Shown one piece after another: positions 15,501 to 63,867 of a stretch of DNA of 64,000 nt (within the stretch, counting starts at the first letter, position 1; the number at the start of each line of letters is the position of its first letter). Source of the stretch: Lamellibrachia satsuma. Its lineage: Eukaryota; Annelida; Polychaeta; Sabellida; Siboglinidae. The stretch lies in contig BSQZ01000015.1 in the NCBI GenBank assembly GCA_033239005.1, positions 8,443,001 through 8,507,000 on the forward strand, given 5' to 3'. A program made the translations under genes and the position numbers. The notes under the pieces were generated by a model. It ran no database searches, was not told the DNA's origin, and saw only the letters and a list, made by a program, of their open reading frames with translations.

Positions 15501-18500
15501 CGCTCTGTCAGCTGCTACACGTCTGGCTTCGTTCCAGCTGTTCCACCCCAGTATGCGTCTTTCATTTTCAATAGTTGATCACCACGTTGTCTTTGGTCGC
15601 CCAACCTTTCTTCTACTTTCAGGCATCCAGGTCAATGCCGTCTCACATTTGCTGTTCTTGTCCATTCGTAGGGTATGTCCTACCCACTTCCAACTTCTTA
15701 ACTTGACCTCAGTGCTGATTGTCTTCAATTTTGTTTTTCCTAGAATATCTCGATTTGATACAACGTATGGCCATCGAATTTGTAGGATTCGTCTTAAGCA
15801 CTTAAAAAAAAGGTATCTAACTTTCTGTTGTCTCCTTTGTTAATTTTCCACATTTCACTTCCATACAACAATACTGGTTTAACAAGTGTTAAAAAGCCTC
15901 AATTTAGATCTCAATGTGAACTCCATATTTGTTTTAGTTTCATGAAGGATACCCTCGCTTTACGAATTCTGTTAACAATGTCATCGCCGCCTCCTCCTTG
16001 CTTACTCACGTTAGCACCAAGGTAGTTATACTTGTCCACTTCCTTTAGCTCTTGATCATCGATTAGTATTCTGTTTTCGCACTTGCTGTTTATCCTCAAT
16101 ATTTGAGTTTTCTTTTTATTTATTCTTTGTCCTGTCCTTGCTGCAAATTGATTCAGTTGTCTTGTCTTTGTTTGCATGTGTGTGTAGCATGATGATATAA
16201 GTGCTATGTAGTCTGCAAAGTCCAGGTCCTCTAGTTTTGACGTGAAGTTCCATCCTATCCATATTTTGTTTCCTGCTGTTGTATTTCTTATTATCCAGTC
16301 CACTACTATCAAGAAGATAAATCCAGACATTGCATCTCCTTGTTTAACTCCAGTTTTGACCTCGAACCACTCAGATTTCTCACCTTCGTCTAACACTGCG
16401 CATTCATTATCTTCGTATAACATCTGTACCATGTGGATTATCTTACATGGAATTCCATAGCTCTCTATAATTTTCCATAGACTCTCTCGGTGCACCGAGT
16501 CAAATGCTTTTTCAAAGTCCACAAACGTGATGTATAGAGTTGCCTGCCATTCCACTACCTGTTCTATAATATTTTGTAAAATAAATATCTGTTCTACTGT
16601 GCCTCTCCCACTTCTGAAACCTGCTTGTTCATCTCTCAACTTGCTGTTAACTCCATCTCTTATTCTGTCAATGAGTACTCTTCCGAATATTTTACTAGGA
16701 ACAGATGTCAAAGTGATTCCTCTCCAATTCCCACACTCTGTAAGGTCACCTTTCTTCGGTATTTTAGCGATCAGTCCCTGCTTCCACGTTTTTGGCACTT
16801 TCTCTTGTTCCCAAAATGTTCTGAATAATTTGAAAAGCCATTTCTGTTGTATTCATGTCTGCTTTTAATAATTCTGCTGTAATTTCGTCCTTGCCCCCTG
16901 CTTTCCCATTTTTCATCTTCCTTAACGCTGTTCTAATTTCTGCTTTTGTTATTGGGTCTTCTGTTACAGGGTCATCAGGTATAGGTCTATTAAAGATTTC
17001 CTCAGTGTTCTTTCCATCACTCCCTTCTGGCCAATCCTTCCGTTATTAAATTTCCACATTTGTCTTTCACTGCATTTGTTGTCTTACGTTTGTCATTACT
17101 GAGGGTTTTTGTAATATCGTACACTTCTTTAATTCTTCCATTAAGTACTGCTTCCTCTGCTTCCATTGCAAGGTGGTCAACCCACTTCCTCTTGTCTTGT
17201 CTCATGCTCTCCTTCACTTCTTTGTCTTTACACCTATATTTATCCATGTAATTCTGCTTAATCCTATCTGACTTTGTCTGCTCGTTTTTGTTCTTCAGTC
17301 ATTTTCTCTCTTCTACTAACTCCCACGACTCCTTGCTGATCCATGATCTTTGCCCTTTCTTTTTTGTACCCCAGTAATTCTTGAGCCGTTTCTTTGTATG
17401 CACCCTCAAAGTCTTGCCATTGTTTCTCAACTTCTTTGTCGTCTGTTTCGTCGTAGTCTTGTAATATATATTTGTTGTGCAACTTCACTGAGAATTGGGC
17501 TTTAATGGCTGGTTGCTGTAACTTAATTATATCAAATTTCTTTCTAATCACCTTGTTCTTTTGTTTTCTCTTTAGTTTCAGCTTGATTTTTTATCACACT
17601 AATTGGTGGTCGCTTGCAATGTCGGCTCCTCTCATGGCCCTAGTGTCCATTACTGATGCCCGGTGTTGCCTGCTCACTAACACATGGTCTATTTGATTCT
17701 TTGTCTTTCCTCCTGGAAACTGTATCAGTTTATGTGGGAAAATGGTACCTGTTACCATGAGGTTATTGAGTCCCGCAGAAGTCAACAAGTCTTTCTCCAT
17801 TGTCATTTCTTTCACCTACTCCATGGCTTCCTATTATGTTTTCATATCCTTTGTTGTCTTCTCCAACTTTGGCATTTAAATCCCCCATTACTATGAGTAT
17901 GTCATGCTTATGAACGCTTGACTTCATTTGTTGGTGCATAGACTTGCATGATCGATAGCTTTACATACCTGGAGAATAATCTAGCATAAATAATTCTATC
18001 GCTGACAGGTTTCCATTCCATCAATACTTGTTCGGCTTTCTTTGTCATCATTATTGCCACTCCGTGTCTGTGTATGTTGTCTTCTCTCCATGACTCTCTC
18101 TCCGGTGTTCATCTTAACTTTTTCTTGTCCCATCCATCTGCATTCACTAATGCCCATGACATATATTTTATATTTATCCATTTCTCTTGCAAGCTGGGCT
18201 GATTTCCCTATAGAGTACAACGTTCTCACATAAATAGTTTCACTATGTACCAACTTTGGAGATCAGTATCTCATAAACTAATCAAGATAACTTCAAACTT
18301 TTCATATACCTAGATGTGTAGGTGTGTTACTGGTCCAAATAACATTTATTTGTGTTCTTTAGCTTTTTATGGGTTTAAAATCATTCATTTGCTCAATTTC
18401 ATAGATCAAAACACACAACTTCAATGGCAGATTGTGGGAGAATTATTATACAGAAGTGGAACTATAGTATGTTTGTTACTACCTACATATGATGGCGAAA

Positions 18501-31527: not shown

Positions 31528-34500
31528 ATGTCTATTGCCATTGCACAGCCGCGCCACATCTTTGGCCTGCGCAGTTCCATAGCAGGCAACATTGCCTTCC
31601 ATGATGAGCAGACCATTGTCTACCCATCTGGCGCCAACTGTATTCTCTATAATACAGATGCCAAAAGCCAGAGGTTTATCCCTGGCTCAGAGAAAAGTGA
31701 AGGAATGACAGCCATGGTAGTCAGTCCCAATCGACGCTACATTGCGATTGCTGAGAAGGGGGAAAAAGCGACAATCACAATCTATGACTTGCACTCTCTG
31801 CGCAAACGGAAGATCCTCAGTTCACCTGACATACAGTCAACTGAGTTTGTGAGTTTGGCCTTCTCTCCTGATTCAAAGTACCTGGTTGCTCAAGGAGGAA
31901 AACCTGACTGGACACTTCTCTACTGGACCTGGGAGAAGTCCAAAGTGATGGCATCAACCAAGACCACCAATCCACAGACCATCTACCAGGTACTGCATGT
32001 TTGTGGAAACATTATGAATATGTGCATATATTCACATGTCCAGTGCATATCAGTTATTCAATCATGTTTTTGGTCTATTTCGGTGACCATAATTCCAGTT
32101 TTCTTCAATTTGTATATCCTGTTCAAAATGTCATTGCCCAAATCTTTTTGTAAAATTTATGTCTTTCTCCAGCTATTCTACCCTGCCTACTTTTAAGACA
32201 TCTGTGATATTCTTCTGTCATCTTTGTCATGGTTTCCCTGCCACTGTTCCCTCCAGTATCATCTTTTCCCTGCCACTATTCCCTCCAGTATCATCTTTTC
32301 CCTGCCACTATTCCCTCCAGTATCATCTTTTCCCTGCCACTATTCCCTCCAGTATCATCTTTTCCCTGCCACTATTCCCTCCAGTATCATCTTTTCCAAT
32401 CCATCATGTCTCCTAATGTGGTCAAAATATTGCAATTTTTGACACTTGAAAAAATTGCACAACCAGTTTTGCATTACTTGTAGTCTGCTCAGTGCTGATA
32501 CAATTCTCTAGTATAACAATATATTAAATTTTAAGTGTGTCATGCAATTGCTGTTTACGATGTCAAGCTGCCATGATGCTTAATTAGATTAATATGTTTT
32601 GCAGGTTGCCTTCAACCCACAGGACAACACACAACTGTGCGTTGTTGGCAATGGCGTCTTCAAGTTGTTTCGCTATAGCGAAGGCAACCTGAAGCAGTTT
32701 GCTATACAAAAGACGGAGGGACAGAAGAACTATTTGTGTGAAACATGGGTCTCAGACGAACGCGTTGTTGTCGGCACTGACACTGGGCGAATGCTGCTCT
32801 TTGAGTCGGGTGAACTGAAACATGAATTCAACTTGTCTGGTATGCCTCACCCAAGCCTTGAGAGTGACAGGTGAGTGACTCAGTCAGCCCATCACTGTCA
32901 GCCCATTTTTGAAATTCAATGGCCGATTTTCCCTGTTTTTTATGTATCTATACATATGTATATACGTTTGTATGTACATACATATTAATATCTCATAATA
33001 GATTTCCAGTTCTGTATACAATTTGGGTATGGTTTCTGTCGCAATAGATTGGGCAGTGCTGCAGGTACACACTCTCTTTCCTCTGGACCACCACACATCA
33101 CAGCCTTGGTTGCCTATTCCAAGGGTTTTGCCTGTGCTGTCGGGCGTGGAACTGTGCATCTCTATGAGAAATCAGATGACAAAGAATTCTTCAAGAAAGT
33201 TCGCGAGATCAAGGTAAGCATATCCTGACGTTTTAGCAGGGTTCACTACGTATTTTTGTTTATATATTTTTAGATTTAGTGAAACCTCTATAATGGCCAT
33301 CTTCGATTTCCAAAATGATGTCTGTTGCAAACCTTTGACTCACAATAAAATTGACTGACCTCAAATCATTCTAGAGACATAATGTTGACAGAAGAACATA
33401 TAATCTTCAGAATAAGCAATTGAATGGTGAAATTTATAACATAACTATCCCAGTTGCATGGGAGAAAAGACAAGAGCATATGAACGGACGAATGAATGAT
33501 ATTTACACTTTCACATGACGTACCTTAATTATTATATGGTTAGTTTTAATGCTAAAATAAAATGGGTGCAAATTCATATTTTTTTACAAGTAAGGAATTT
33601 CATATTTAAATTTAAATATGCAATGTAGTGCAGCATGTAAAGTAATCTAGAACATTAATGCATTCAGTATATCAGGCAACATTCACCAATTTTGTAAAGT
33701 AGTTATTGAGGCGTGTCTTCATATATACTATACCGGTACGCTGCAGTTCAATGTTGAAAGAAACGTTGTATTGCATAGATCCCACAGGATCCAAACAGCT
33801 CAGATCCTGCGAGGGCCGAGAATCAGATGATAACATGCCTGGCTGTGAGTCCATCAGAGGAGAATCTTGTGTGTACTACAGATGTCAACCAGATGTACAT
33901 GATTCCACTCTCTAGTGCCGACCTCAGCAAGGTCAGTGTACATGATTCCACTCAGAAGGAACAGCTTCTTATACAAATAAATCCATACAAAGTGTAGACT
34001 CAAAGCAGTAGTACACATTTTCCCCAAGATACACCAATTGGAGAGGACTCCTACAGTTTGAACCAAGTGAGCAGTCATAGAGAGAGACTTGTATATACAT
34101 TATGTATACATAGGGTCACCATGCATTTATGAAGTGCTAAATACTCTAATTGTACCATTTGGCTATATTTATGAAGACATAGTTTAGAATATATGTGACA
34201 TACTTATTAAGATTGATTATGATTGTAGGGTGATCAGGCGACCTTTGAAACCCTCTCCCAAATGTTCCACTCGAGCCAAGTGACTGGACTGGACATCTGT
34301 ATCCGCAAACCAGTCGTTGCGACCTGCTCCATGGACAGATCCATTCGAATCTGGAACTTTGAGTCATGGTATTATCACTAGAGATTGTATCATCTGGAAA
34401 GCTATGCCTGAGCAGTTTAAATGCAGTATCACAATATTTTATCCTGTTACTCAATTTTTATTTTATATTTTACTTTACAACAATAAAGATGGCAGATTAT

Positions 34501-45901: not shown

Positions 45902-46812
45902 CAAGGTACACTGATGGACCCAGTGCACTGTTCTGACAACACAAGGCACACCAATGGATCCAGTGCATTCTTCTTGCATCACAAGGTACACCGATGGATC
46001 CATTGTATTGTTCTGACAACACAAGGTAAACCAATGGATCCATTGCATTGTTCTGGCAACACAAGTTACACCAATGGATCCAGTGCATTGTTCTGGCAAC
46101 ACAAGGTACACCGATGGAGCCAATGCATTGTTCTGGCAACACAAGGTACACCGATGGATCCATTGCATTGTTCTGGCAACACAAGGTACACCAATGGATC
46201 CAGTGCATTGTTCTGGCAACACAAGGTACACCGATGGACCCAATGCATTGTTCTGGCAACACAGGGTACACCAATGGACCCAGTGCATTGCTCTGGCAAC
46301 ACAAGGTACACTGATTGACCCAGTGCATTGTTCTGGCAACATAAGGTACACCGATAAATCCAGTGCATTGTTCTGGCAACAGAAGGTACATTGATGGATC
46401 CAGTGCATTGCTCTGGCAACACAAGGTGCACTGATGGATCCAGTGCATTGTTCTGGCAATACAAGGTACACCGATAGATCCAGTGCATTGTTCTGGCAAC
46501 ACAAGGTACATTGATGGATCCAGTGCATTGCTCTGGCAACACAAGGTACACTGATGGATCCAGTGCATTGTTCTGGCAACACAAGGTACACTGATGGATC
46601 CAGTGCATTGTTCTGGCAACACAAGGTACACTGATTGACCCAGTGCATTGCTCTGACAACACAAGGTACACCGATGGATCCAGTGCATTGCTCTGACAAC
46701 ACAAGGTACACCGATGAACCCAGTGCATTGCTCTGACAACACAAGGTATACCGATAAACCCAGTGCATTGCTCTGACAACACAAGGTATACCGATGAACC
46801 TAGTGCATTGTA
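45902..46812. repeat. 40-bp minisatellite, about 22-23 units
   Basis: The unit is ACAAGGTACACCGATGGATC followed by CAGTGCATTGTTCTGGCAAC, repeated in strict 40-bp register with a few substitutions per copy. Because 40 is not a multiple of 3 and the unit has no stop in several frames, it yields long overlapping ORFs (up to about 300 codons) that are artefacts. It lies between the 3' ends of CFAP57 and TECR. Confidence 0.97.
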
Positions 46813-47594: not shown

Positions 47595-47748
47595 TTTAAA
47601 ATATTGCTATACTTTGACACAGGCATTTAATGACTGTATGCAAATCCAACATAACTATTTTCCTGTAAATTAACAGCATGTTATCTTTCAAGACTGTTTG
47701 TGGCAGCATCACCATAGCAACTGCATGGTGGCTACACTCCTAGCAAGG

Positions 47749-50700
47749 TTACAAGATGAAAGGAACTATCGCATGACGACTGCGAGGATAGTTGCTAAAT
47801 TCACGACAGTAGTTCTGATGCTTGCCAATTGCCCACATCGTCATTTGATAGAGTCCCGCAATCATGAACAGGCCAGCTGAAACAACAAGCCAGCCCATTA
47901 GTACTGCAAACATAAACAGGCCAGCTAAAACAACACGCCAGCCCATTAGTGCTGCAAACATGAACAGGCCAGCTAAAACAACAAGCCAGCCCATTAGTAC
48001 TGCAAACATGAACAGGCCAGCTGGAACAACATGCCAGCCCATTAGTACTGCAAACATGAACAGGCCAGCTAACACAAGTCAGCCCATTAGTACTGCAAAC
48101 ATGAACAGGCCAGCTGAAACAAAAAGCCAGCACTGCAAACATGAACAGGCCAGCTGATACAACAAGCCAGTCCATTAGTAATGCAAACATGAACAGGCCA
48201 GCTGAAACAAACAAGCCAGCCCATTAGTACTGCAAACATGAACAGACCAGTTAAAACAACAAGCCAGCCCATTAGTACTGCAAACATGAACAGACCAGCT
48301 AAAACAACAAGCCAGCCCATTAGTACTGCAAACATGAACAGGCCAGCTAACACAACAAGTCAGCCCATTAGTACTGCAAACATGAACAGGCCAGCTGAAA
48401 CAAAAAGCCAGCACTGCAAACACGAACATGATAGCTGAAAACAATGACACACATTTCTGTTTTGATAAATTGTGTTAAGAGATCATAAGAATCTTAGTGA
48501 AACAGGGTAAAGCAGGAAACGGTCTTGGCAGCTGATTGGTCACCTTGTTTTTACTACAGGCATTGGGCAATTAATCTAATATGTTAACTAATTAGTAGAT
48601 TAATTGCCCAATAACTAGTTAACTTTCAAATTAACTTAACTTAATAAAAAATAATCCAAGTTTAGCTTATGTTAACTAGTTAAGTTAATCTTGAAGGATT
48701 ATTTTCGATTAAATGAAGTTTAAGTTAACTTCTAATTGGGAAGTTAACTTGTTAAGTTAATGTTGACTTACACTACATGTAAATCTGGAGTTTATAGAAT
48801 GTGCAGCCGGTCAACTATTTTACTCTCTTGTCACCAGTAAAATAGTTTACCTGCTGCACATCCTATAAACTCCAAGTGTGACCCACTGAGCCAATGTCCG
48901 TCTACCTGTATCTAAACATGTGGATGACATTATTCTAATTACTTTGTAAAAAATAAGTCAATTGAAGTTAAGGCCACACACGGCAGGTGAAATTACGTAT
49001 TTTGAAAAAAATATGCTCAAAATGTGTTTCCTCCTTTTTCCGATAGCTTTATATGTTAATTATCAATAAAGTTAATTTTTATGACGATCACATACCTCTA
49101 AATCACTTTTATTCGTGAATAAAGTCTACCCCTATCAAGTAATAGTCCCATTTTGATTTTCAAAAGTTCGAAAATATGCGATGTTTAGACCTTAGCAACA
49201 CTGCCGTAAATTCACCGTACGCCATTTTGTTGGGTACGGATAGATTCCCCTTTCCGTTCTCTAACTGCCTGTCTAGACGGCATCCCCACCCTTTGACCCG
49301 TACTCGCTGGACATAGGCATATAAGTAAGCAGTATTCTACCAACTATCTCCTTATTTGGTATTCGGCATCATGGTACTTCACCGTCGGGACGCTCCGCTG
49401 TACTTCCGACCCGCATTGACCCAGATATTTCCATACATGGCGCGGACATTTCCATATGACGCATGATCTCCCACAATGCATGATATTGTTATTTCCGAGT
49501 GTAAACAACAATGGCGTCTAACGAAAGTAATCATCGAGTCAGAACGAATAAGTTTTCCACAAAGCATGCTTTTGGGCAGAAAAAGAAAGGGAGAGCACAG
49601 CAACTGCCGGTATGCATGTGCAAATAGGACAATTTCGGCCGCGAAACAGCTGGATACGGCAAAAATGCAGCTGTGCGTTGCCACTGCAGACGACGAGTTA
49701 GCGAACGGGGGCACAGGTCAAGCGCCGAGGAGGAAGAAGGGCCAGCATGCAAGGCTGGCAGATTTGACTGAATGTTGTGGAACCTTGTTTGTCTTGTGGA
49801 CTCTGTTACTGTCTACTTGTTTCTTAATTGTTCCTGAGGTTAACAAATTTAGTTAAAATTTGTTTATGTATATAGACGTAGCCTGTCCGCGGGGTGACCT
49901 GAGAATTAAGGTACACATTTACATTTGGAAACATAGCTTTCTATATGTTTTATCAATCCTGATTGATGTTATCATATACATGACACTTCAACTTCTTCAA
50001 CACCTTCAAGTCATGCATCAAGTCATTATTTGAGTAAATACACAACCCTGTCAAATACCTACCAAAGAAACTTGCTAAAATCAAGTACTCAAATCAACAG
50101 AAGTTGTAGAAAACTGCTAATAAAGGAGCTTATACAGGCCAGATGGCCTCCTGTCCCACCAGCCATACTGGTAAAAATACTGGTAAGAAACTTCTGTTGT
50201 ATATTAATAATGACACACAAAAATTCCAAAATGGCGGCCATTTTGTTTGGTTCATATATCACATTTGCAGGGAGCATATCTCTGGAAGTACTTATGCCAG
50301 CAACATAATGTTTACATTGTTATATTCAGTATAATAATGTCTATAAGCATGCCAAAGGAAATGTCTATGTGACACATAGTTTGAAAGTATCAGAAGTATT
50401 GACGGTAAGGAAATCTTTGACGGCCGTTTTCTCAAATACATGTTTTCTGCATTTGGAAAAAGGATATCTCTGTGAGTAATTATGCTATACAAATAAGGTT
50501 TTGTATGTTGCATTCAGCATACTTTACTCTGTACAATAACCAGAGACATTTTAAAAATCATCAACAGTTTGAAAGATAAGCACGTATTTGTTGCCAAAAA
50601 TGAAGCAAATTATAAAATGTTGGGAAAGTGCCATTCATTGTGATTCGATTGGCGATTAATAAACATTTTATAATGAACATGATTATGTAGCAGGTAGTGG

Positions 50701-53700
50701 TTTCTTGTTTGTCTTGTTATCTTGCATGGGAATTGTTGGCAGTAATCTTCTTGGGAGTAGTGGTTTACATGGAAATCACAATTTTCTAGAAAATCACAAT
50801 TTAATTTAATTAATTAACTTTACTGGAATAGGTTAATTTTAATTAATAAAAAAATCACAATTAACTTTCAATTAACTTTTTTATTGGGTATATTATGTTA
50901 TGCAATCGGGTGGCAACTGCCACTGGCTTACTGTCAGGAGTAAGAATTTGCCTTGATGATCATAGTGCCCATTAGACACAGCCACTCAGCCAGTGGCTCA
51001 AGTTCACCCAGAGTCTTCCCGTTGCAGCTACTTCCCGTAACAGCTACTTCCTGTTATGGCTACTTTATTTTCCCGTTATGGCTACTTTTTGGAGGAGCAT
51101 TGATTTATTTGTATGTGGTTGTAAGCTGAGACATTTTCACCATGAATAATTCTATGTTTAGTATCACTGAGGACACTGTATCTGTATCTACATAATATTA
51201 TTGAAGATGGATGTGGTCGAATTTGTCATGTACAGAGGTTCCAGTGTAGGTGTACTGGGCCAAATGGCAACAAGTACTGGGTGTGTACCAGATATGACTT
51301 TAAATACAAGTCAACAGTGAGAACCAGTGAGGCTGGTGTCTTTATGAAGTAGGGTGGTGAGCATGACCACCCTCCTTGAAGTTCACAAAACTTGGGTGGG
51401 GTAAACATCACCCCAACATCTTCAAGTTTGTGGAGGCGATGAGGAAGGAGCAGGCAGCAACAAAGCTTAAGCTGGCACAACATGATGCAGCCATACCACC
51501 ACCACCACAGAAAAAGAGGAAGTATTGGATTGTGAACCAGCATCTGGCTCAGTTCAAACAGTAGTATGTGATGGGGGAAAGATCTGTACTGAGTTTTCTG
51601 CTTGTAGATGGACACTTACTTAAATTAGAGTGACATTGTGATGATTGATGACAGTTACGTGTTGATGTTAGAATGACATTCACTTGATACATGACTTTCA
51701 TTCAATGCATAATTTTGGGCATAATGTATGGAGTATCTTATACTGAGTACTCTGTACAATTAATGTCTTCATGTCTTAATAAAACTGTAATGCATACACA
51801 TCAGGTATTTTAATGTTTTATACCATCTGAAATAATTTATTCTCCATTGGCTCAAGAATAGAATCAAGGAAGTAGCTAGTTTCAATTTCTAATTAGTTGT
51901 TCCCACAACAATAGCCATAACGGGAAAAAAGTAGCCATAATGGAAAGTAGCCGTAACGGGAAGTAGCCGTAATGGGCCTAACTCAGCCACCTAACCAATA
52001 TCAAAGAAAGCGTAAAATGAGGTCCAGGCAGTGTCAATCAGTTAATAAGCTGAATTGTGAGTGTGCCTGGCCAAGTACTATGACTACCTACTCTTGCTTT
52101 TGTGGCTTTCATCACCCAACGAAGGTGATGCAATACAAAGTGTATCTGAGGTATGGGGTTTTTCTAGAAACAATCCCATATGACAAAATCCAAATGTGAA
52201 AAGTGAATGAAATCCCACAATACAATATTTAACTTAAATTCTTGAAATGTGCTTTCAAGGTGTATATATATTTGTACAATGTAATTAGGTTTCATTAACT
52301 TGCTTGCCATGTTGCAGACAGGGACACCAGTTAGGTGGGACACCAGTTAGGTGACTTTCATCACCCAACGAAGGGGATGCAATACAAAGTGTATCTGGGG
52401 TCTGGGGTTTTTCTGGAAACAATCCCATATGACAAAATCCAAATGTTCATTTTCCACCTGTATTTCTGTCTCCATGTCTAAACCACGTGTGTATAAAGAA
52501 TTTGACCTCCCAGTCAACATTGAAGTTAATTGAAATTAATTGTTAATTTAATGAAAGTTAATTGTTAATTTAATTTAACTGAACAATTTGGGAGGTTAAT
52601 TTAATTTAATTGACTTGATAAATGTGTGAGGTTAATTTAATTTAACTGTAATTTAATTAATTAACTTTCCAAGTTAATTGTCCTATGCCTGCTGGTATGT
52701 TACATTTTGCCGCAATGGTAAAACATGTTACAACTTGCCCCGCTGGCTGTTGCAACTTGCCCATCATCGGGATAAATTGTAACAGATTAGGAGACCTCAT
52801 AAAACATATCAATGCGCAAATGTATATTGCATTAAGCATTTGTTTATGCACCTGCTATGTGCAGGAGATATTTGTGGTTTCGTTGTCATTAAAAAAGTTT
52901 CGATCAGATAACAATTCGAACCGCAATCCTTAAATATGTTGTTTTTGTTACAATTAGCCCCAGTCTCCCCTATATTTAAAAGTAGTATCCCAAGATTTTC
53001 ATTCATGTTTGTCATTACAATTATGCTGACAAAGCGATTCAGACATTGGCTCAAATAAGGGGCCCCTACATATAATAACATGATAACATCTCAATAACTA
53101 CAAAAATCACATTCCAAGATGTACAATTCTGCTGATTCCTGGAAGAGTCTCTTCCCTGGTCATTCATAGTAACATACCTGGTAAGCACTGTGTCATGAGG
53201 GTGAAGCTGAACCAAGCGGAGGCTTCATAGGTGTAGTTGGGGCAGGAGACAAAGTTGAAGAGCCAGGTGAACGGGTTGGCTGTAGGGTAGGGGATTCGGC
53301 GCACTTTTGTACCTGCAGTAAAGTCACTCTTATTATCGCTTTAAAATTTTTTTATTTTCATATGTACAATTCAGGTTTTTTTAAGGTTCAGCTCATACAG
53401 GCAACATATTTTGACAACTGGCTTACACTAAAACTCCATCCTCAGCCTATCGCAAATCCGGTTTGTCAATATCCAAATACGGTTTATGTAGTGTGTGAAT
53501 AGTTTATGTAACATCCGCAGTCAATTTAATAAAAAAATCCCTATTTGTGTTCAAATTATCGAAAGAATTTACTTTAGTTGTTAAATATGATAAGGCTCAA
53601 AATGCTGAATATCCAAAATGGTAAAGATGTTCGGGTCAATGCTGATCTTGAGTTTTCAGCGTTTCCATTTTTACTTCAATTAATGTTGGACCAAACATCA

Positions 53701-56700: not shown

Positions 56701-56844
56701 AGTGTTCACTGCCCAATCACTGCACATGGGTGCAATTTATATTTACATTATATTTATATTAAAGCCTCAATTCCATTGTAGAACACATAAACATACTTAC
56801 GATAAAGCTGGCCAAGCCACCATACACTTGCAAGTTTCCAAAGG
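47749..56844 (-). CDS. TECR: TECR, very-long-chain trans-2-enoyl-CoA reductase (last four exons; 5' part not in window)
   Basis: Minus-strand exons 56844-56801 (44 nt), 56553-56496 (58 nt), 53312-53178 (135 nt) and 47876-47749 (128 nt including TAA) join in phase and encode about 120 residues. Signatures in order are [69 protein letters not shown] and [20 protein letters not shown], ending [14 protein letters not shown]. This is the steroid 5-alpha-reductase-type C-terminal domain of TECR, which does the NADPH-dependent last step of very-long-chain fatty-acid elongation in the ER membrane (known). Vertebrate TECR has about 308 residues, so roughly 180 N-terminal residues are missing. I found no further exon up to 64000, and a large transposon complex fills that side. 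The acceptor of the last exon is embedded in a 48-bp tandem repeat. Confidence 0.93.
47863..48440 (-). repeat. 48-bp minisatellite built from the acceptor region of the last TECR exon, about 12 copies
   Basis: The plus-strand unit is CATGAACAGGCCAGCTAAAA followed by CAACAAGCCAGCCCATTAGTACTGCAAA. On the minus strand each unit contains TTGTTTTAG|CTGGCCTGTTCATG, matching the true TECR acceptor and exon start (TTTCAG|CTGGCCTGTTCATG at 47876). The period is mostly 48 (16 codons), with shorter units near 48100 and 48380. The frame is open from the exon through four upstream units to 48075 and encodes [15 protein letters not shown] blocks. Confidence 0.93.
48562..48612. repeat. Hairpin with 17-bp arms in TTAA-rich sequence
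   Basis: ATTGGGCAATTAATCTA at 48562-48578 is mirrored exactly by TAGATTAATTGCCCAAT at 48596-48612. Surrounding sequence to 48770 is rich in GTTAACTT motifs. It is probably part of a MITE in the TECR intron. Confidence 0.8.
48787..48873. repeat. Hairpin with about 38-bp arms
   Basis: GGAGTTTATAGAATGTGCAG at 48787 is mirrored by CTGCACATCCTATAAACTCC ending 48873. The pairing extends through ACTATTTTACT to a loop of about 11 nt. It looks like a small palindromic MITE or a structured transcript region. Confidence 0.8.
49200..49860 (+). other. CpG-rich block with a short ORF, unrecognised
   Basis: The block is richer in CpG than the surrounding TECR intron (CGTCGGGACGCTCCG, TTTCGGCCGCGAAACAGC). 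An ATG at 49511 opens [19 protein letters not shown] ... [11 protein letters not shown], which ends just before a possible donor GTATGC; another frame runs 49476-49856. I recognise no family. It could be a promoter with a first exon of an unseen gene, or the 5' part of a transposon. Confidence 0.3.
49861..51017. other. TECR intron stretch without recognisable genes
   Basis: AT-rich sequence with no coding signature. TTAATTAATT-rich phrases at 50806-50885 resemble those at 48600-48760 and 52500-52680 and may be parts of one MITE family. Confidence 0.4.
51018..51976 (+). mobile_element. TIR element carrying a decayed FLYWCH-domain gene
   Basis: The left end CCCGTTGCAGCTACTTCCCG is mirrored at the right (CGGGAAGTAGCCGTAATGGG). 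Both ends contain several further CCCGTTATGGCTACTTT-type units in opposite orientation. Inside, 51230-51380 reads [32 protein letters not shown] and GEHDHPP, a FLYWCH zinc finger (F..C...Y.W.C...GEH.HP) with a stop near 51350. It is followed in another frame by [20 protein letters not shown] and [18 protein letters not shown] domains occur in Mutator-like elements and their host derivatives; no transposase catalytic core is present here. Confidence 0.65.
52106..52447. repeat. Direct repeat pair of about 92 bp, 249 bp apart
   Basis: CTTTCATCACCCAACGAAGG with the following ATGCAATACAAAGTGTATCT and ACAATCCCATATGACAAAAT is present at 52106-52196 and 52355-52447. A small tandem GACACCAGTTAGGTG lies just before the second copy. 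Confidence 0.85.
52500..52690. repeat. TTAATT-rich low-complexity block
   Basis: Repeated GGTTAATTTAATTTAA and TTAATTGTTAATTTAA phrases fill this block. No gene is visible from here to the TECR exon at 53178. Confidence 0.6.
53782..53908. repeat. 30-bp minisatellite, about four units
   Basis: ACCAATTGAGGAGGAACCTT plus TAAGATGGTG repeats at 53811, 53841 and 53871, with a preceding degenerate unit. A 30-bp unit keeps one frame open on the minus strand ([10 protein letters not shown] repeats), which is not a real gene. Confidence 0.93.
53909..55340. other. TECR intron stretch without recognisable genes
   Basis: No family signature or strong repeat is seen. Open frames are short and isolated. 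Confidence 0.4.
55340..55910 (-). mobile_element. Penelope-like element reverse transcriptase fragment
   Basis: The minus strand reads [20 protein letters not shown] (55850-55790) and, downstream, [20 protein letters not shown], then [20 protein letters not shown] and LFEELALYN (55613-55470). The [16 protein letters not shown] box is a hallmark of Penelope-like RT. Frameshifts separate the two parts, and the C-terminal GIY-YIG domain is missing. It has the same orientation as TECR, in whose intron it lies. Confidence 0.85.
56085..56330. repeat. Minisatellite of GTGGGAGTAAGTACACTTG units
   Basis: About 13 units of 17-20 bp, each close to TGGTGGGAGTAAGTACACTT, with slight length variation. Confidence 0.95.
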
Positions 56845-59496: not shown

Positions 59497-62135
59497 CTCA
59501 TTCGCTACCGCTGACGCGAAAACACGTCGCCAATTCACATGTGTCACAGCCCCGCTGACTTGTAAACACGGCAGCATGCGCGTGGCTGTACTTCCCGAGC
59601 GCCGTGAAAACACGTCGCTAGCAATTGGCTGATCGTTTTGTAAAACGGTTGCCTATTGGTTCCTGTTTGATATGCTGACCAATAGAATACGTTGTAAGCT
59701 TTAATTTAGTATAATACATGATATAGGTCACTATTTGAGTTGTAAGAGAATATTTGATTGGAAGTTAGGGAACCGCGGTAAACCGCCATCTTGTCAACAA
59801 GTTTGGCAGTTTTATTAGCGATGTCTTCAGACGAGTCTGATTCAGAATTTCATGGATTTAACGCTGCTGATTTTGATGTTACATCGCATACGGCAGTAGA
59901 TAACCTGTCTGACATCAGTGTTTCATCAGTGAAAACCGACGATTTATGTAATAGTGACGAAGTCGAAGAACGCAATGATCAACATGACACACCCCCGACG
60001 TGGAATGCAAACAAAGCACCCATCACTGTATGTGATTTCGAAGAACCAGTAGGCCCTACGTTGACATTATCGGCAGACAAAACCGAACTTGACTTCTTTG
60101 AGTTACTTTTTCCTGCGATATTGTATGAACAATTAGCTAGAGAAACCAATCGCTATGCCGACCAATGTCAGCAAAAATCAGGGAAAGTTGACAAGCAGTG
60201 GGCAGACAAACCGACATCGCCGATGGAAATTCGCTGTTTCCTTGGCATCCACGTCTACATGTCGGTCGTGCAGTTACCTACCTACAAGGAGTACTGGAGT
60301 TCCGATGAACTTTTTGGAAATTTTCCAGTGAGTAGGTTCATGATCCGCACTCGGTTTGAAAAGATTCTGCAGTATTTTCATGCCACTGATTCAACACAAA
60401 ACCCAGGACGAGGACTGCCGGGTCATGATAAACTGCACCACATCCGATCTGTCATGGACGTTGTGCAGGAAAACATCATGCTGCAATACCGCCCTCATCG
60501 TGAAAATGCAATTGATGAGGCAATGGTTGCTTCGTAGGCGTCTTGGCTTTCGCCAATACATTCCTGCGAAGCCACACAAATATGGCATAAAGGTGTGGGT
60601 TCGTGCTGATTCGCATAATGGCTACGTCTGCGACTTCAATGTTTACACGGGCAAGGAAGGTAATCGCGTTGAAGTCGGGCTGGGAGAAAGCGTCGTGCTG
60701 AAACTTTGCGACAGCATTACTGGAAAATATTTCCACATTTACTGTGACAACTATTTTTCTAGTGTGCGTCTCTTCAAGAAACTTCTTGAGAAAGGACTGT
60801 ACGCATGTGGCACAGTCCGTACGAATCGGAAATGCTGGCCAAAGGACCTGAACAAAAAGGCCTTCAGCAAGAAACCAAAAGGACACACTGAAGTGCGACA
60901 GGACGGGAACTTGGTTGCAAGCGGCTGGATGGACAACAAAGCTGTTTTTCTGTTGTCGACAAATGCTGATCCGACAGTCGATGCTGCAGTGTTGCGCAAG
61001 CAAAAAGATGGCACAATTGTGGAGATTCAGTGTCCTTCTGCACTGCCACAGTACAATCTCTACATGAACGGTGTTGACATGGCAGACCAAAACAGAACCC
61101 AATATTCCTCGTGTCGAAAATCCATCAAGTGGTGGAAGTATTTGTTCTGGTTTGTATTCGACACCTGTGTTGCAAACAGCTTGATTTTGTTGAATTCATC
61201 ACCAAACCATCAGATGCAGACATCAAGCGGGAAAGAAAAGAAACACATCAACCTGGAATTTCGCAAGGCACTGGCCAAACAGATGATCGGCAGTTTCCAG
61301 AGCAAGCGTAAGCGAAAGGCACAACAAGAACTTGCTGTGGCAGATGATGCAGATCACTGGCCAGAAAAACGCAAAGCTGGCCGTTGTAGAGAATGCAGCA
61401 AGAAAGGCAAGCGCTCTGAACCACGAACTGGTTGTAGCGTTTGTGATGTCAATCTCTGCATCGGTGACTGCTACAAGGATTACCACCTTGCTCTTCGTGC
61501 TGGGCGTTAATGTAATAAATGACATTGAACAATGAGATTACAAAACACTTTATTACAGGGAATTAAATAGAAACACTAGAGTACACCATACAATTGCATT
61601 ACTAGTATTATATTATCTTCTGGACATTTTCGATTGTTATTATACCCAAACGACATTTTTCAGATTTTGTTGTTGTTGTGCGTGTCTATATAAACTGCCA
61701 TAACAGTAAAAGTAACCAACAGATTTTGATGATTTTTGAATTACTGGGCAGCTCACAAATATAGTTATATTTGCTTCATTGGGTTGTATATGCTAATGGC
61801 AAAAGATAATTATTTAGTAGCAGGGCGAAGTTTGCATGATACTAAAGAATAATTTTTCAGATTTTCTTGTGGTTTGCAACCTTGGTAGAAAAATAACTAT
61901 TGCATGTAAATTAATAAAATTTAGATGGTTAAAATCTGTATTCAGTTTACTGTAATTCATATACACAACATTGTCTTGTACAACTACTATTATGGAAGTG
62001 ACAGTGCAATTTATTCAACTACCCTAAATGATCTGTTCTAATTGCAGCAGCTTCTGGGGATGCAGGGTATTCAGGCTAAAAATAGACTGGGGATGGCAGC
62101 AGTTTCTCTGCACTGGTGATGCAGTAGCGAATGAG
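59497..62135 (+). mobile_element. piggyBac transposon, 2639 bp, almost intact
   Basis: The element starts CTCATTCGCTACCGC after TTAA (59493-59496) and ends GTAGCGAATGAG before TTAA (62136-62139). The 12-bp ends are perfect inverted repeats at the piggyBac target. It encodes one transposase on the plus strand (59821-61510) with about 320 bp before and 620 bp after. Only one frameshift is seen in the gene, so the insertion is young relative to its host element. Confidence 0.95.
59821..61510 (+). pseudogene. piggyBac transposase with a single frameshift
   Basis: The start is ATG at 59821 (MSSDESDSEFHGFN, an acidic N-terminus as in the family). The DDE-type core shows FLGIHVYMSVVQLPTYKEYW and FMIRTRFEKILQYFHATDS. 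The catalytic acids are in AIDEAMV, FHIYCDNYFSS and NGVDMADQNR. The C-terminus is a cysteine-rich domain (CRECSKKGKRSEP, GCSVCDVNLCIGDCYKDYH) ending at 61510. The first part stops at 60535-60537 (TAG). The rest is open in the next frame from about 60528, so one small indel there accounts for the break. Total length is about 565 residues, normal for piggyBac. It inserts by TTAA-specific cut and paste (known). Confidence 0.93.
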
Positions 62136-62842
62136 TTAAATACCGATGAGACGAGTTTTTCTCTTTGCCCCAAGTCTGGGAAAGTGCTCGACCCAAGAGG
62201 TTGGAGGAATGTTGGAGGAACGACCTCAAACGTGGCAACGAGAAGGACACCTTGATGGTGCTGGCGACCTTCTCCGCTGACGGCAAGGTGCTGCCCGGGA
62301 TGATTGTTTATCCCTATCAAACCGTGGGCGATCGGCTTATCCGATAGCGGATGGATGAAATCGGACACATTTTTCGAATACATAGTCAACGTCCTCGACC
62401 CCCCTCTCAGACCCTGCTCTCTCCGCGTGGAAACTGACCGTGAGAGAGTTCCAAAGGGAACACCCAAACACCGTCGTGACGAGGGTCAACTTTGCGACAC
62501 TAATCGACAAGACAATAGGAGTGGCGGCGAAGGAGTCTACCATCCGGAACGGCTTCTGGGCATGCGGGCTCTTCCCGTGGAACCCAGATGCGGTCGACTA
62601 CTCAAAATGCATGGTAGACGTGCTGGCTCCTATCTCAACTCACACACCTGCTGGAATGACAGTCACGCTCGATCAGGAAATTATTGATCTAGACAACACA
62701 CTATCGCACGGTGAAGTGAGCAGCGCAGAGAAAGCGGATTTGTTTCCACGTTTTTGGGCGTTAATCAATGTCGCCATCACCAATGCTACAAAGAACGCAA
62801 GCCAAGTGCCCAGAGTGAGAGTGAGAGCAGAAGAAGAGGACA

Positions 62843-63295
62843 ACGGACAAAGAGACGAGAGAGAAGACGGAGGACAAGAGCCCGAAGAAAGAAGAGTTAC
62901 ACGAGAACAGGAGAACGGACAAAGAGACGAGAGAGAAAACGGAGGACAAGAGCCCGAAGAAAGAAGAGTTACACGAGAAGAGGAGAACGGACGAAGAAAC
63001 GAGAGAGAAAACGGAGGACAAGAGCCCGAAGAAAGAAGAGTTACACGAGAAGAGGAGAACGGATGAAGAGACGAGAGAGAAAACGGAGGACAAGAGCCCG
63101 AAGAAAGAAGAGTAACACGAGAAGAGGACAACGGACGAAGAGACGAGAGAGAAGACGGAGGACAAGAGCCTGAAGAAAAAATAATAACACGAGAAGAGGA
63201 GAACGGACGAAGAGACGAGAGAGAAAACGGAGGACAAGAGCCCGAAGAAAAAGAGTTACACGAGAAGAGGACAACGGACGAAGAGATGAGATAGA
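62843..63295 (+). repeat. 72-bp coding minisatellite in the pogo transposase tail
   Basis: Units start at 62843, 62915, 62987, 63059, 63131 and 63203, with a partial seventh. Each encodes 24 residues close to NGQRDEREDGGQEPEERRVT plus REQE. One unit has a TGA in place of CGA at 63063, ending the frame. The minus strand is open too (SSSVLLFSC repeats), but that is an artefact. Confidence 0.93.
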
Positions 63296-63867
63296 AAAAC
63301 TACAGGGTCCCAAAGACAGAGGAACAATGGAGGCGAATAATGGCCGAAGAGACGAGATTCAAGGAGCAGGAGTGGAAGAACAAGCAGCGCACGATGCATG
63401 CGACATGCATGATTCTAGTCTCTTGGATGAGTTATACAATCTTGTCGTCGAAGCAGATGATCAGGAGCAAGGAGAACTAAGTTTGATACCACCGTCCACC
63501 TCTACATCAACCGCACACCTAGGTGCCAGGCAAGCGTTATCGACGCACACATTTTACCCTCGTAACCCCCCGCAGAAAGAAGAGAACTGCAGAAAAATAC
63601 CCAAGTGCAGTGACATCCGAGAAATGGCGGCAAATGTACAAGGAAAGGGAAGATGCAAAAAAGAAAACGAGAAAGAGAAACAAGCAAAAAAGGAAGAGCG
63701 TGAGAAGAAGCGAAAATTAAATGAAGAACTCAAAATGAAGAGAATGCAAGAGAGGAATGATAGGCAGAAAAAGAAAAACGAAGAAAAACAGCAAAGAGTG
63801 CAGACAAAGATAAACAAACACAAGTGAAACATGTCAACAAATGAGATTGAACACAACAGAAAAAGTG

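Follow-up and report, generated by a model that had tools for sequence, protein, structure and literature searches.

A 48-bp minisatellite across the last intron-exon boundary of TECR in the annelid Lamellibrachia satsuma resembles the mirages of amphioxus

Minisatellite-like duplications of intron-exon boundaries, named mirages, have been described in amphioxus, in Adh3 and the globin genes BflGb6 and BflGb9 (PMC3087553). In the accessible part of that report, the BflGb6 mirage is given as having 6 units in one of two haplotypes and 3 in the other, RT-PCR is said to have suggested that regular splicing was undisturbed by the mirages, and the authors remark that mirage units could serve as cryptic sites (PMC3087553). 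Two further systems share single properties with the locus described here. A minisatellite with multiple donor sites, known to us by the title of its report, also multiplies a splice site, although it concerns donors whose use in RNA is stated in that title, while the array presented below carries acceptors known here from DNA alone. NAGNAG tandem acceptors, as outlined in the part of PMC3250501 that was available, are likewise neighbouring in-phase acceptors that add whole codons, but their step is three bases, in contrast to 48-nt units that each bring a T-rich stretch and in most cases a branch-point-like word.

The window, meaning the whole analysed stretch of 64,000 nucleotides from Lamellibrachia satsuma (contig BSQZ01000015.1), encodes on its minus strand the 3' part of TECR (very-long-chain enoyl-CoA reductase), with four exons at the following window positions:

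56801..56844, minus strand: TECR exon with an AG acceptor and a GTAAGT donor, within the 121/121 match to P0002
56496..56553, minus strand: TECR exon with an AG acceptor and a GTGAGA donor
53178..53312, minus strand: penultimate TECR exon, its peptide ending MTQCLP, with an AG acceptor and a GTATGT donor, the donor lying after 53178 in phase 1
47749..47876, minus strand: last TECR exon including the stop codon, with the first 14 nt equal to the unit start (Pfam Steroid_dh, PF02544)

Canonical splicing of these exons yields 121/121 residues of the annotated L. satsuma TECR (P0002, "putative art-1"), which uses the 47877-type acceptor, and the authentic boundary and reading frame are thus preserved when the gene is spliced at 47877. 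Beyond the window, four further exon matches were found, the most distant of them at 100518, numbered as in the window (genome searched: 735 Mb, 279 contigs). A structure search gave the steroid 5-alpha-reductases 7c83 and 7bw1 as best matches, as expected. Two distant TECR relatives (L010 and L011; 36–37% identity) are located on a different contig, on opposite strands and separated by about 5 kb, and are perhaps intron-poor, given their ORFs of 303 and 333 residues.

A 48-bp minisatellite forms the 3' end of the last TECR intron (5.3 kb, 53177-47877, phase 1) and can be divided as follows:

47877..48434, minus strand: 48-bp minisatellite of 12 units closing the last intron of TECR, from Tandem Repeats Finder and unit decomposition, with the 3'-most AG (47878-47877) as the true acceptor
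48154..48432, minus strand: six-unit block, first copy
47877..48153, minus strand: six-unit block, second copy
47877..48068, minus strand: four units in phase and open into the TECR peptide (heads 48068, 48020, 47972 and 47924)

Tandem Repeats Finder (TRF) reported the array at 47858-48412 with a period of 48, 11.8 copies, 89% matches and a score of 870, in keeping with a first-pass annotation that had placed the TECR acceptor within a minisatellite of about 12 such units. When cut at the exon-start word, the array comprises 12 intronic units followed by the exon start, with unit heads at 48432, 48394, 48346, 48298, 48250, 48201, 48153, 48113, 48068, 48020, 47972 and 47924, the exon head at 47876, and unit lengths of 38 (40 when counted from the AG at 48435), 48, 48, 48, 49, 48, 40, 45, 48, 48, 48 and 48 in this order. 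The unit consensus is CTGGCCTGTTCATGTTTGCAGTACTAATGGGCTGGCTTGTTGTTTTAG. An AG is retained at 12 of the 13 junctions, the lone exception being AA at 48251, and the 15-base T-rich stretches ahead of the AGs contain 8 to 11 pyrimidines, compared to 10 at the true site. Three features had been overlooked in the first pass: a second, inner AG (GTTTGCAG) found in most units, the branch-point-like word TACTAAT found in 9 of 12, and the arrangement of units 1-6 and 7-12 as two copies of one six-unit block, which agree in 259 of 281 columns when aligned. Similarity among the eight units that are exactly 48 bases long ranges from 88 to 100% (mean 93%), with units C and H identical, and together with the doubled block this makes tandem-repeat-type turnover evident. 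The exon matches the unit consensus at all of its first 14 bases, at 8 of the next 11 and at 3 of the 23 after those. Across the eight units the exon-like parts are less changed than the rest (2/112 vs 13/272 sites, as raw counts).

Repeats are common in the window, where 25 merged TRF arrays, hand-picked from 34 rows, make up 6.6% of the sequence. Downstream of TECR, a 40-bp minisatellite of 22.8 copies (45902-46811) is traversed by open minus-strand frames of 258, 305 and 307 residues, and a 72-bp array of 6.5 copies (62832-63298) has several open frames on both strands. At 31528-33216 the plus strand carries a WD-repeat gene that we take to be CFAP57-like, with an intronic 32-bp array at 32233-32397 (99% matches); this array was considered as a second mirage and rejected, since some 200 bp separate it from the next CFAP57-like exon match, so that it is not a boundary array. 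Two overlapping plus-strand ORFs at 59782-61510 match successive parts of the transposase profile PF13843 (3-136 and 136-348) with a broken frame, and presumably represent a piggyBac-like element, and a reverse transcriptase ORF (PF00078) is found on the minus strand at 15911-16852.

The TECR array consists of tandem repeats spanning an intron-exon boundary, its 12 units ending at an acceptor and its unit start coinciding with 14 exon nucleotides, and it carries splice signals in many units as the amphioxus mirages do in the available part of PMC3087553. As in the BflGb6 mirage described there, both the 3' end of the intron and the 5' part of the exon are included. The unit is 48 bp, compared to 150-160 bp in BflGb6 and 10-72 bp in Adh3, and, unlike what that part of the paper describes for amphioxus, four of the upstream units are open as well as in phase (PMC3087553). 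As the host is an annelid and not a cephalochordate, we class the array as the same kind of structure, common descent not being implied. The first pass had regarded such a repeat as an unusual potential source of protein length variation; this kind of structure is already known from the amphioxus genes. No report of an annelid mirage was among the papers listed by the literature searches, which does not imply absence from print. Our preferred interpretation, which we hold with a probability of roughly 0.75, is that the array is a mirage-type minisatellite and that the 47877 acceptor is used normally.

A possible origin of the unit was suggested by a second protein record. P0123 (ENA, 152 residues, from a 955-base contig) reads, in another frame, through a last exon of TECR that is more diverged. 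Over the 42 nt that end at the acceptor, its degenerate back-translation agrees with the window at 27 of 35 informative positions, compared to 34 of 95 further up. Sliding the unit along P0123 gave one fit only, at 28/39 and above 99% of shuffles, the next best (22/39) equalling the shuffle median. A relative without the array thus seems to exist, and the unit, as read from the protein letters of P0123 and not from DNA, looks like about 35 nt of old intron end joined to about 13 nt of exon. The intron from -35 (GTNTGYTGGACN) and the exon from +14 (GATTGCGGGACT), which are 48 nt apart, are compatible at 10 of 12 positions, a stretch picked by eye and compared in degenerate letters. An earlier proposal that the middle of the unit derived from the exon was dropped after P0123, in favor of derivation from an old intron end that has a near-repeat within the exon. 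A mobile-element origin was also set aside: searching the organism's own genome with 47600-48600 returned the locus itself, the 23-bp array of L002 and an AT-rich match in L003, with the reservation that missing matches are no proof of rarity. The L002 array (1501-1784; 12.3 copies, 96% matches) is unrelated, with GGCCTGT-CATGTTTG-like words in common with the TECR unit, and the L003 match (92%) concerns a 38-base AT-rich stretch at 48557-48594, just upstream of the array.

We propose that a near-repeat of about 12 nt, present in both the intron end and the exon 48 bp apart, may have seeded the first duplication. The sequence itself shows that a 48-bp piece comprising the branch-point-like word, the T-rich stretch, the AG and some 13 nt from the start of the last TECR exon was duplicated in tandem and amplified, with one doubling of a six-unit block among the steps. 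The 47877 acceptor would give the normal enzyme, and the upstream copies would remain intronic or yield at most low-level, mostly non-functional transcripts. The normal protein would be spared if units were gained or lost, since the acceptor and the exon start are common to the units.

Several observations count against this mirage-type interpretation. Twelve near-identical AGs preceded by similar T-rich stretches offer no sequence reason for exclusive use of the last one, and the hydrophobicity of the repeat peptide (96% of open shuffles fall below 2.2), the basis of the neutrality test in only 7 changes in 4 units and the fewer changes in the exon-like parts point the same way. The most viable competing explanation, which we nevertheless consider improbable, is that the upstream acceptors, being met first by the spliceosome, are used to a notable extent and give truncated TECR, so that array length tunes the enzyme level. 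Use of the seven AG unit heads upstream of the four open units (7 of 12 AG heads) would indeed lead to premature stops and truncate TECR, the inner AGs of these upstream units also lead to early stops, and 9 of the 12 units offer a branch-point-like word of their own. Nonsense-mediated decay is not expected for stops in a last exon, and would not be expected for these transcripts. On the other hand, TECR is an essential lipid enzyme, which such a decoy would burden. The amphioxus mirages are, moreover, described in the available part of their report without disturbance of splicing (PMC3087553).

Less probable still is that the in-phase copies serve as alternative acceptors that lengthen TECR by 16 to 64 hydrophobic residues, as the first pass had proposed. 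Its observations on phase and frame hold: read in the true exon's frame, the sequence is free of stops between 48078 and the TECR stop, and the candidate AGs at 47925, 47973, 48021 and 48069, lying 48, 96, 144 and 192 nt from 47877, are in phase, have the TECR stop as their first stop and would add 16, 32, 48 and 64 residues, respectively. The inner AGs at 47904, 47952, 48000 and 48048 are likewise in phase and open into TECR, which further favors such use. In-phase open copies follow, however, from a period divisible by three combined with an open frame, and since a third of periods are divisible by three, chance is the likely explanation. Openness was rejected as proof of coding, as two of the three consensus frames and 51% of shuffled units (in the TECR frame) are open.

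The repeat peptide is hydrophobic above chance, also as first claimed, with a consensus Kyte-Doolittle value of 2.45 while 4% of open shuffles reach at least 2.2. A 19-residue window of at least 1.6, absent from the canonical TECR C-terminus, arises with one added unit, so the insert would be membrane-like; the hydrophobicity may stem from the T-rich splice signals together with an exon part coding for a membrane helix. Against a coding role, there are 7 departures from the consensus in the four open units, 2 of them synonymous (27% expected neutrally; changes taken singly, and a weak test as they are few), including L to H and L to R within the hydrophobic peptide and two changes that share one codon and jointly give proline. 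The changes look neutral and, as far as so weak a test can suggest, indicate no constraint on the extra peptide.

Length at the site is also strictly conserved. Among 122 homologues (P0001-P0122; the best 120 of 1923 protein matches, none of these 120 a siboglinid by name, plus P0001 and P0002), exactly 10 residues separate the flanking P and QM in 114, while 7 retain the length, as judged by eye, with a changed flanking residue. No insertion at the junction was seen in 121 of the 122, the remaining one, P0001, starting inside the array, and an alignment of 30 of them revealed no gap there. In the structure modelled for the Owenia homologue (P0007; mean pLDDT 91.4, pTM 0.82), helices span 241-257 and 260-287, which places the junction (residues 261/262) where the last helix begins, two residues past a short break; an insert there would be predicted to disturb the TECR fold. 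The gene, acceptor, period, phase, open frame and hydrophobicity of the earlier proposal thus stand, but TECR length variants are spoken against by the seven truncating heads, the neutral-looking changes, the homologues without insertion and the 47877-type acceptor of the annotated L. satsuma protein.

The array as a protein-length system, for which phase, openness and hydrophobicity are the sole support, is accordingly disfavoured. In its extended form, unit number would set the choice among five in-phase acceptors, and TECR in different individuals or species would be extended by 0 to 64 hydrophobic residues ahead of its last membrane helix; we regard this as very unlikely, although it would, if true, constitute a splice-site VNTR doubling as membrane-segment code.

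Variation in repeat number between individuals is in itself plausible. P0001 (ENA, 70 residues, from a 1.58-Mb contig), the only protein with the repeat peptide among the matches listed when the protein database was searched for isoforms, contains a last TECR exon identical to that of the window, ahead of which stand one complete unit and 12 residues of a further one, with a unit sequence that differs from the window's; it is an ORF beginning within the array and not a spliced product. An exact hybrid origin of its last unit (first part from unit I, end from unit J) fails at the first residue; 15 of 16 residues agree by eye, and two point changes in unit J would equally do. That the number or order of units in the window is an assembly error, as the identical units C and H and the doubled block might suggest, is least likely of all, as 22 of 281 columns distinguish the two blocks and the same exon likewise follows array units in P0001, a separate record.

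If the mirage-type interpretation is correct, boundary-spanning minisatellites as described in amphioxus would extend to an annelid, and the TECR array, with twelve nearly identical acceptors in a row, would provide a natural test bench for acceptor choice.
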